From assembly GCF_002214585.1 (NCBI RefSeq), contig NZ_CP014862.1, positions 1,116,001 to 1,180,000 on the forward strand: DNA of 64,000 nucleotides. The letters are read 5' to 3'. This DNA is from Thermococcus profundus. Lineage in GTDB: Archaea; Methanobacteriota_B; Thermococci; Thermococcales; Thermococcaceae. Below are positions 48,767 through 52,275 of the stretch, in pieces (position 1 is the stretch's first letter; every line of letters starts with the position of its first letter). The position numbers were made by a program, and so were the translations under genes. Under the pieces are notes generated by a model. That model did no database searches. It was not told the origin of the DNA and saw only the letters and a list, made by a program, of their open reading frames with translations.

Positions 48767-49849
48767 TCAAGTAAAGGTGACCCCTTCCAGGCCAGTTTTT
48801 CTGATGATATAGGTGTCCTCGTGCTTGATAGCTCCCTCAGGGATCATCAGCGGTGCGTGGATTATGCTCAGAACCATGTTCTCTGCAACCTTGGTAGCCC
48901 TCGTCGGGACTACTATGGTCGGCATCGGGAGTTCCTCGATGAGAAGGCCAACGCCGTGAGTGTAGCCCGCTATGTAGGCATCACCGAAGCCCTTCTCTTT
49001 GAAAAAGTCCGAGATCTTCTTTTCAACCGAATTCAAGGTTGCCCCAACGCGGGTCTCCTGAAGGGCAAGCTCAAGGGCTTTCTCTTTGACTTCGATAGCC
49101 CTTCTAACCCTCTCTCCCGGTTCCCCGACGATGAAGGTTCTCGCGGTGTTCGCGTAGTAGTGATTCCAGTCGGTTCCGATGACCACCGTGACAACCCCGT
49201 TCTCCTTCACCTTCAAATCTCTGAAGGGCTCGGCGTGCGCCCTTGGGGTTGTTGAGACGTAAACCTTCGGCTCCTCACTTCCGCTGCTCATGAGCTCGCG
49301 GTAGACCTCGGCCGCTATTTCGGTCTCGCTCACTCCCGGTCTTATAACCTCTTCAGCGACCTTCATACCCTTTTGCGCTATCTTTCCTGCTTTCCTGATG
49401 TTCTCTATCTCCCAAGGCTCCTTTATCATCCTGAGACTCATTGTGAGTTCGAGTATATCAACCACCTCAACCATAGGGTTGAGCCTCTCAAAGAGTTTGA
49501 TGAAGAGCATGTACGAGTCCCTCTCAACGCTAAACTCATGTCCAACTCTAGAAAAGCCGTTGCCGTTGACCCACGTCACAACGCCGGCCATTAAGTCCTC
49601 AACGCGCTGGAACTCGCGCACATCCTCGATCCAGCTCCTCCTCTTGAACTCCTCGGCTTCGCCTTTAACAACGAAGACCGTCGGCTCTCCCTCCGCTGGG
49701 ATGAGCAGGCTCGGGCGGAGCCACTTGGTTCCGGTGAAGTAGATGAAGGTGGAGAGCGTCCTAATGACGGCCCCATCGATGTCGTTCTCCCTCAGGAGTT
49801 CCTGAAAGCGCTCGACCCTTCTTCTGAAGATTTCCTCATTGCCCCTCAC
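48767..49849 (-). CDS. M24-family (Xaa-Pro peptidase-like) protein lacking most metal ligands
   Basis: A 360-residue protein with the creatinase/prolidase N-terminal domain and an M24 pita-bread domain. Aligned to the archaeal prolidase ligands, both Asp are replaced (Val223, Asn234), His298 (THGVGLLIEE) is kept, the first Glu is replaced (Ile330) and the last Glu344 (KHEDTYII) is kept. With three of five ligands lost, it is unlikely to bind the usual dinuclear metal. It may be a creatinase-like metal-free enzyme or a binding protein. It starts 1 base after the DUF438 gene, so the two are probably co-transcribed. Confidence 0.82.
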   Translation of the reverse strand: MRGNEEIFRRRVERFQELLRENDIDGAVIRTLSTFIYFTGTKWLRPSLLIPAEGEPTVFVVKGEAEEFKRRSWIEDVREFQRVEDLMAGVVTWVNGNGFSRVGHEFSVERDSYMLFIKLFERLNPMVEVVDILELTMSLRMIKEPWEIENIRKAGKIAQKGMKVAEEVIRPGVSETEIAAEVYRELMSSGSEEPKVYVSTTPRAHAEPFRDLKVKENGVVTVVIGTDWNHYYANTARTFIVGEPGERVRRAIEVKEKALELALQETRVGATLNSVEKKISDFFKEKGFGDAYIAGYTHGVGLLIEELPMPTIVVPTRATKVAENMVLSIIHAPLMIPEGAIKHEDTYIIRKTGLEGVTFT

Positions 49850-51191: not shown

Positions 51192-51203
51192 GTTCTCACC
51201 TTC

Positions 51204-51217
51204 ATGACAGGTGTCAT
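51204..51217. promoter_or_regulatory. Operator 1 of the DUF438/TusA-like/XRE regulon
   Basis: ATGACA-GG-TGTCAT is a perfect palindrome. On the minus strand it lies directly after the TATA box GCTTATAAAC (51225-51234), over the expected transcript start of the DUF438 gene, where binding would repress. Confidence 0.7.
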
Positions 51218-51266
51218 ATCATCGGTTTATAAGCATTGTTGGTCAAATTTGCCCAGAAATGTTTAT

Positions 51267-51280
51267 ATGCCACATGTCAT
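51267..51280. promoter_or_regulatory. Operator 2 of the regulon
   Basis: ATGCCA-CA-TGTCAT differs from operator 1 at one half-site base and the spacer. It overlaps the 3' edge of the TATA box GTTTATATG (51261-51269) of the TusA-like gene on the plus strand. Confidence 0.68.
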
Positions 51281-51301
51281 ATCTGGGTTCGGTGAAGGAC
51301 T

Positions 51302-51781
51302 ATGATGCTGGACGTTCGTGGGTTGAAGGCGCCGCAACCAGCGGTTATGATAATAGAGGCCCTTGGAAAGCTCGAAACGGGCGATACTCTCGAGGTCATA
51401 GGCGACAAGCCCTTCGTTGACCTGCTTCCAAAGCTGGAAGAAGCTGGTTATCAGATAGAGGTTAAGGAGGTTTCAGGCTTCTTCGTGCTTAAGGTTACCA
51501 AAACAGAAAACTCGAAGGAGCTTAAGATGGAGGTTAAGGAGGAGTGCGACGATAAGCTGGAGGAAATAACCGAAGACACCAACGTCGCAAAGCTCCTGAA
51601 GGCCTATCCCGAGTCACTTAAGATACTCGTCAAGTACGGCTTCTCTCCCCTTGAAAACCCCGTAATGAGGAAGACACTGGCCAGGACGATAACCCTGAAG
51701 GGGGCGAAGAGGCTCATAGGGATGAGCGACGAGCGCTTTAGGGAGATGATGGAGGAGCTGAAGGGGCTGAGAAAGAGGTAG
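51302..51781 (+). CDS. TusA-like (DUF2249) / DUF1858 protein
   Basis: A 159-residue protein of two small domains. The N-terminal ~70 residues resemble TusA/SirA/DUF2249 (LDVRGLKAPQPAVMIIEALGKLETGDTLEVIGD), but the sulfur-carrying Cys of CPxP is Ala (APQP). The C-terminal DUF1858 domain (VAKLLKAYPESLKILVKYGFSPLENPVMRKTLARTITL) usually accompanies DUF438 proteins. A role in sulfur transfer is therefore unlikely; ligand or partner binding is more plausible. GGTGAAGGACT precedes the ATG. It is divergent from the DUF438 gene. Confidence 0.83.
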   Translation: MMLDVRGLKAPQPAVMIIEALGKLETGDTLEVIGDKPFVDLLPKLEEAGYQIEVKEVSGFFVLKVTKTENSKELKMEVKEECDDKLEEITEDTNVAKLLKAYPESLKILVKYGFSPLENPVMRKTLARTITLKGAKRLIGMSDERFREMMEELKGLRKR

Positions 51782-51864
51782 CTTTCCATTTTTAGATTTT
51801 TACATAATTATTTTTATCTTCAATTCAACAAAACTTTAATGCTTCAACTGGGAAAACCTTAAAT

Positions 51865-51878
51865 ATTCCACGTGTCAT
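51865..51878. promoter_or_regulatory. Operator 3 of the regulon (autoregulation site)
   Basis: ATTCCA-CG-TGTCAT has the same right half-site as operators 1 and 2. It follows the TATA box CCTTAAATATT (51857-51867) of the XRE regulator gene itself, suggesting that the regulator controls its own synthesis. Confidence 0.65.
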
Positions 51879-51888
51879 AACAGCTATC

Positions 51889-52275
51889 ATGAAAACCAAC
51901 GCCTTCGAAGTCGCCTCGCGCTACATCTACCCATCCATCCGGAGACGCCTCGTGGAGGTGCTCCGCGAGAAGGGCCTAAAGCAGACCGAGATAGCGGAAC
52001 TGCTTCACATTACACAATCGGCGGTTTCTCGTTATCTTAAAATGGACAGAGGGGCCCTTATAGATATCTCGGCCTTTCCCGATGTGGACCGAGAGATCGC
52101 TGAACTCGCCGAGAGAATACTCGACGAGAGACCCGGGGAGTATGAGATACACTCCTCGCTCGTTAAGCTCTCGCTGGAGTTCCTTGGAAAGGGCTATGCC
52201 TGCACTTTCCATTCTCAAATCGACCCAGAGGTGAATCCGGTGGAGTGCAGGGTTTGTATTGAGCTCTTTGGCTGA
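51889..52275 (+). CDS. XRE-family regulator with Cys-containing C-terminal domain
   Basis: A 128-residue protein. An N-terminal helix-turn-helix (YPSIRRRLVEVLREKGLKQTEIAELLHITQSAVSRYLKMDRG) is followed by a helical part and a tail with three Cys (ACTFHSQIDPEVNPVECRVCIEL). Those Cys could hold a metal or Fe-S cluster and make the protein redox- or gas-sensitive. Its promoter and those of the two genes before it carry one palindrome, making it the best candidate for the binding protein. It has almost no leader after the TATA box. Confidence 0.85.
   Translation: MKTNAFEVASRYIYPSIRRRLVEVLREKGLKQTEIAELLHITQSAVSRYLKMDRGALIDISAFPDVDREIAELAERILDERPGEYEIHSSLVKLSLEFLGKGYACTFHSQIDPEVNPVECRVCIELFG

Follow-up and report, generated by a model that had tools for sequence, protein, structure and literature searches.

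A small archaeal regulator and a 14-bp palindromic operator predicted to control a nitrosative-stress regulon in Thermococcaceae

A 128-aa helix-turn-helix (HTH) protein of Thermococcus profundus is probably a repressor, dependent on a metal or an Fe-S cluster, that controls its own gene and a regulon for nitrosative stress, with ATGACR-N2-YGTCAT as its operator. The analysis started from a window of 64,000 nucleotides (RefSeq assembly GCF_002214585.1, contig NZ_CP014862.1, positions 1,116,001 to 1,180,000) and was extended to related genomes. Across the family, the core of the predicted regulon would consist of hcp, a flavodiiron protein gene, the DUF438-hemerythrin-PAS gene (with cupin and M24 genes) and the DUF2249-DUF1858 gene, and the share of the window would be DUF438 with M24, DUF2249-DUF1858 and the regulator (Table 1). 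No hcp gene was found in the window genome, and the regulon is accordingly represented in the window in part only. The small regulon proposed in the initial annotation is wider than the window shows, including hcp and the flavodiiron protein in relatives.

Table 1 Features of the predicted regulon in the window (positions counted from the first nucleotide of the window)
Feature	Position	Strand	Remark
M24 metallopeptidase gene (creatinase/prolidase type)	48767-49849	-	second gene of the DUF438 unit
DUF438-hemerythrin (HHE)-PAS_10 protein gene, 446 aa	49851-51191	-	Pfam
Operator of the DUF438 gene, ATGACAGGTGTCAT	51204-51217	.	perfect 6-2-6 palindrome
TATA core of the DUF438 gene, TTATAA	51227-51232	-	
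Second conserved palindrome, TGGTCAAATTTGCCCA	51240-51255	.	midway between the two divergent operators/promoters
TATA box of the DUF2249-DUF1858 gene, TTTATAT	51262-51268		
Operator of the DUF2249-DUF1858 gene, ATGCCACATGTCAT	51267-51280	.	overlaps its own TATA box
DUF2249-type/TusA-fold + DUF1858 protein gene, 159 aa	51302-51781	+	Pfam
TATA box of the regulator gene, TTAAATAT	51859-51866	+	from sequence; kept in orthologues
Candidate autoregulatory operator, ATTCCACGTGTCAT	51865-51878	.	left arm merged with the regulator TATA box
Regulator gene, 128 aa	51889-52275	+	N-terminal HTH, helical middle, C-terminal Cys/His tail

The three palindromes reported in the initial annotation are present where it had placed them, before the genes it had named, and all fall inside 675 bp. 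They deviate from the family consensus at 0 (DUF438 gene), 1 (DUF2249-DUF1858 gene) and 2 (regulator gene) positions. With up to two mismatches allowed, 23 matches were found in the window against a mean of 10.1 in shuffled sequence, and none of 100 shuffles reached 23; no exact match beyond the three sites was found in the 64-kb window. Genome-wide, the strict operator occurs at one place in T. profundus, the DUF438 promoter. A loose search of the same genome, with two mismatches, was rejected as noise (266 matches vs 116 for the control). Because loose matching is noise, the weight given to the sites of the DUF2249 and regulator genes comes from their conservation in orthologues and not from local rarity. 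A possible tandem site at 51877-51890 (ATAACAGCTATCAT) was also discarded, being absent from other orthologues. The DUF438 and DUF2249 operators are 63 bp apart, a spacing that recurs 33 times in the fetched loci, and 26 of these 33 loci also carry TGGnCA-N4-TGnCCA, the second palindrome of Table 1. Its arms co-vary (GGGCA/TGCCC, GGACA/TGTCC), and it is possibly the site of another factor.

Comparison among genomes establishes both the operator and the genes that it precedes. The palindrome is conserved: a search of 94 whole Thermococcaceae genomes gave 161 places with the strict pattern, against 5 for the pattern read backwards, and orthologues are preceded by the palindrome in each of the six genera of the family as well as in Thermoproteota. 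When strict sites within -150 to +100 of predicted gene starts were counted in the fetched loci, they were present at 38/50 DUF438, 38/41 hcp and 13/16 flavodiiron genes. The count for DUF2249 genes (34/35) is inflated by the DUF438 operator 63 bp away, the own operator of these genes usually having one mismatch. The number of DUF438 genes lacking a site equals that of the loci in which a flavodiiron gene lies ahead of DUF438 in one unit. The operator of the regulator gene itself is weaker and constant, with the TATA box followed by ATTCCRNNYGTCAT in approximately 47 of 52 orthologue promoters. The palindrome hypothesis was to stand or fall on conservation before orthologues and on rarity at unrelated promoters; the palindrome is kept before orthologues, and among other genes in the fetched loci only 11/826 are preceded by a strict site, several of them truncated or additional regulon genes. 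Most of the strict sites checked in other positions fall in reading frames.

Further candidate targets with an operator are small DUF4405-like genes, an MFS gene and a ferritin-like gene. Strict operators precede small membrane-protein genes at L099:6116 and 6553, L100:5660, L101:6274 and L145:3813, near hydrogenase genes and, in Pyrococcus, near suf-like genes; one of the encoded proteins is DUF4405-like, below the cut-off. The operator at L160:4729 precedes an MFS transporter gene, homologues of which adjoin M24/DUF438 in genomes G061 and G076. In two related Pyrococcus genomes, a strict palindrome lies between an MTA phosphorylase-like gene and orc1/cdc6 (L144:4057, L149:3689), with no obvious target gene beside it. 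In addition, many genomes have a conserved element, GGTTAAGAAACCGCAAA, just 5' of the TATA box of hcp (e.g. at L079 and L096).

The operator is inherited together with the regulator. The regulator gene is present in 71 of the 94 genomes and in all six genera, a count that includes remnants in G015 and G082. Co-occurrence, which the initial annotation had proposed as a check, was assessed in the 74 genomes that are at least 90% complete, leaving out G053, whose contig is cut within the regulator gene. The strict site was found in 61/62 genomes with the regulator vs 3/12 without it, the sites in the latter three (G007, G029 and G050) all lying inside reading frames. The same comparison gave 61/62 vs 1/12 for DUF438 and 46/62 vs 0/12 for hcp. 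On a tree of the Cdc6/Orc1 protein built from 30 of these genomes, all 12 without the regulator among them, the loss of the regulator required 11 changes, of which at least 8 are forced by supported branches; from this phylogeny, at least 8 independent losses of the regulator are deduced. When independent pairs were compared, the operator went with the regulator in 7, against it in 0 and showed no difference in 1 (p 0.016). DUF438 went with the regulator in 8 or 7 pairs and against it in 0, and hcp in 4 or 5 against 0, the latter not significant alone. Genome G060 (locus L107) has an intact regulator, an hcp gene with a stop, DUF438 in fragments and no strict operator, which fits a regulon in decay and the one pair without difference. 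In G005, where the regulator is lost and DUF438 kept, no site within 2 mismatches was found at the DUF438 promoter.

The pairing also holds over genomic and phylogenetic distance. In Pyrococcus genome G065, operators precede hcp (1442802) and DUF438 (1507100), and the regulator is at 905971, hundreds of kb away; the sharing of the operator is thus explained neither by duplication in place nor by mere closeness. MAG contigs of Thermoproteota, three in all, encode regulator orthologues with 53-56% identity and the same recognition helix, TQSAVSRYL. On two of them (L211, L213) the regulator is divergent from hcp with a strict operator between, and on the third (L212) operators precede the regulator and DUF438. 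That the shared palindrome arose by chance or promoter duplication, as the clustering of the three sites in the window might suggest, is next to impossible given its retention in six genera, in Thermoproteota and at distant Pyrococcus loci. Another factor might instead bind the operators, for example the ~300-aa paralogue with a similar HTH that occurs in nearly every genome, the 128-aa protein being merely a target. This is very improbable: the paralogue persists in regulator-less genomes, whose operators are gone, whereas it is the 128-aa regulator that accompanies the operator into Thermoproteota, and there its recognition helix is unchanged. The pairing of the 128-aa regulator with the operator is thus strongly supported by genome comparison.

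The regulator matches two Pfam HTH families above their cut-offs, HTH_5 (28.6 bits, cut-off 22) and HTH_3 (25.9 bits, cut-off 23). The HTH_3 score and a helical HTH place it among XRE-type regulators, in agreement with the initial annotation, and the three C-terminal Cys described there are accompanied by one invariant His. The resulting motif, C105-x2-H108-x11-C120-x2-C123 (CxxH-x11-CxxC), is invariant in 33 orthologues. Pfam and NCBIfam searches returned general HTH families only, with neither a cNMP-type sensor plus CRP winged helix nor Rrf2, and an ArsR/SmtB winged-helix domain scored below its curated cut-off (NCBIfam HTH_metalloreg 25.1 bits vs 55). PDB searches by sequence and by fold gave generic HTH matches and no close fold match. 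The predicted structure is all-helical (mean pLDDT 84), and its C-terminal tail is of low confidence.

The motif suits a metal or Fe-S site in this poorly modelled tail. It could also be a structural zinc site. Distant relatives that lie near nadA and lack the palindrome have the motif as well, in a differently spaced form. These relatives, archaeal HTH proteins of ~130 aa with C-terminal CxxH/CxxC (G097, G113 and G114), have a homologous HTH and a largely kept Cys-His tail, but their recognition helix differs (e.g. TQASVSQYL) and they have other neighbours, adjoining a nadA-like gene; no strict palindrome was found at their loci. The nadA-like (quinolinate synthase) gene beside the distant homologue was seen at L216, L217 and L218; this homologue is perhaps a separate regulator.

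The position of the operators suits repression. The operators of the DUF2249 and regulator genes share nucleotides with the TATA box at its 3' end, and the DUF438 operator lies ~9 nt downstream of its TATA box, the DUF438 and hcp operators being at or just after the expected transcription start. The position is not the same in the three promoters, contrary to the initial annotation. Both placements suit repressor sites, and the overall geometry fits repression and autoregulation. That the regulator activates instead, or does both, is quite improbable: in many hcp promoters there is another operator ~80 or 190 bp upstream, which speaks for it, but the operators closest to the gene coincide partly with the TATA box or come after it, as is typical of archaeal repressor sites. 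In the proposed mechanism of repression, the 128-aa protein would recognise ATGACR-N2-YGTCAT, probably as a dimer, and the bound operator, which covers either the TATA box at its end or the point where transcription starts, would block TBP/TFB or the polymerase. The regulator would in this way repress its own gene and a regulon that defends the cell against reactive nitrogen species, nitric oxide among them. CxxH/CxxC would hold a metal or an iron-sulfur cluster, the nitrosylation or oxidation of which would release the DNA, and autoregulation would reset the system.

Among the products of the target genes, the 446-aa protein matches DUF438 (85.3 bits), PAS_10 (82.1 bits) and Hemerythrin (53.7 bits) in Pfam. 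The M24 gene starts one base after it (49851/49849), and in most genomes M24 lies directly 3' of DUF438 or after a cupin gene; the cupin gene stands between DUF438 and M24 in many genomes, and hcp, cupin and DUF438-hemerythrin-PAS go together. The 159-aa protein matches DUF1858 (64.5 bits), TusA (43.4 bits) and DUF2249 (PF10006; 33.5 bits). Its annotation as TusA-like/DUF1858 was right as to DUF1858 and the TusA fold, but the sulfurtransferase Cys of the TusA active site (GLxCPxP) is absent: the window reads GLKAPQP (LDVRGLKAPQPAVMI), and the Cys is absent in 34/35 DUF2249-DUF1858 homologues, which are all those with a readable motif. These proteins read LDVRGLxPPQP as in DUF2249, a signature which we take to be the mark of that family. 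The HCP of relatives passes TIGR01703 (648.9 bits vs a cut-off of 360.8), and the best NCBIfam match of the flavodiiron protein, below the cut-off, is NO-reducing flavorubredoxin.

The initial annotation had left the signal as O2, NO or redox state. Because hcp and the flavodiiron protein carry the operator in relatives, it is narrowed to nitrosative stress, with O2 still a rival, and from the gene content we infer NO as the likely signal, although the absence of hcp from the window genome counts against it. In bacteria, the HcpR, NsrR and NorR regulons have hcp and norVW in common (PMC1274295). In Desulfovibrio desulfuricans, hcp, a cupin gene and a gene for a hemerythrin-PAS protein are jointly induced by NO, and HcpR2 is modelled as a repressor whose Fe-S cluster is damaged by NO (PMC5701242). 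The same regulator, operators and repression could, however, serve O2 or a general redox signal, with HCP, flavodiiron and hemerythrin proteins scavenging O2 or peroxide. The substrate that flavodiiron proteins reduce may be O2 as well as NO. Hemerythrin domains bind O2 and, like Cys centres, can act as sensors of O2 or redox state, and the ferritin-like gene carries an operator in one Pyrococcus genome (L153). An O2 or redox signal is nevertheless rather unlikely: none of the operator targets seen belonged to the superoxide reductase/rubredoxin set, the distant partner met most often is hcp, which in bacteria responds to nitrogen oxides (PMC1274295, PMC5701242), and the D. vulgaris hemerythrin-PAS homologue responds to nitrite and not to oxidative stress (PMC5701242).

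In the open-access literature, to which the search was confined, no description of this system or of a regulator of hcp in Thermococcales or archaea was found. A sulfur proteome of T. onnurineus lists FdpA in the superoxide-reductase cluster and holds no information on this regulon. SurR, the ArsR-type redox switch of Thermococcales, has a winged helix, a CxxC in its DNA-binding domain and a GTTn3AAC site. The regulator described here is likewise a proposed redox-related regulator of Thermococcales and its HTH also matches HTH_5, but its model has no strands, its Cys are at the C-terminus and its site is another. The bacterial Rrf2-type regulator NsrR carries an Fe-S cluster. NsrR represses hcp and other NO-defence genes (PMC1274295), whereas the present regulator has no Rrf2 match. 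The bacterial CRP/FNR-type HcpR also has a small hcp-centred regulon with hemerythrin-type genes and is predicted to answer nitrogen oxides; in the model for HcpR2, it is an Fe-S protein that represses hcp (PMC1274295, PMC5701242). It belongs to an unrelated protein family and its site is wTGTGA-N6-TCACAw instead of ATGACR-N2-YGTCAT; that hcp is a core target here as well, as the 38/41 hcp genes of the fetched loci show, is a function in common and not family membership. Most likely, the job of HcpR and NsrR is done here by an unrelated protein and operator, a convergent counterpart. A more far-reaching and tentative proposal, to which we give somewhat less than even weight, is that of a dedicated archaeal NO regulator of a family unrelated to known bacterial NO sensors, with Fe-S on CxxH-x11-CxxC, which moved with operator and hcp between Thermococcales and Thermoproteota.

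In summary, hyperthermophilic archaea have detoxification enzymes of the NO type, for which the present analysis proposes a regulator together with its 14-bp operator and a list of target genes. The uncharacterised domains DUF438, DUF2249 and DUF1858 are thereby tied to one predicted function, and the prediction is testable in the genetically tractable T. kodakarensis.
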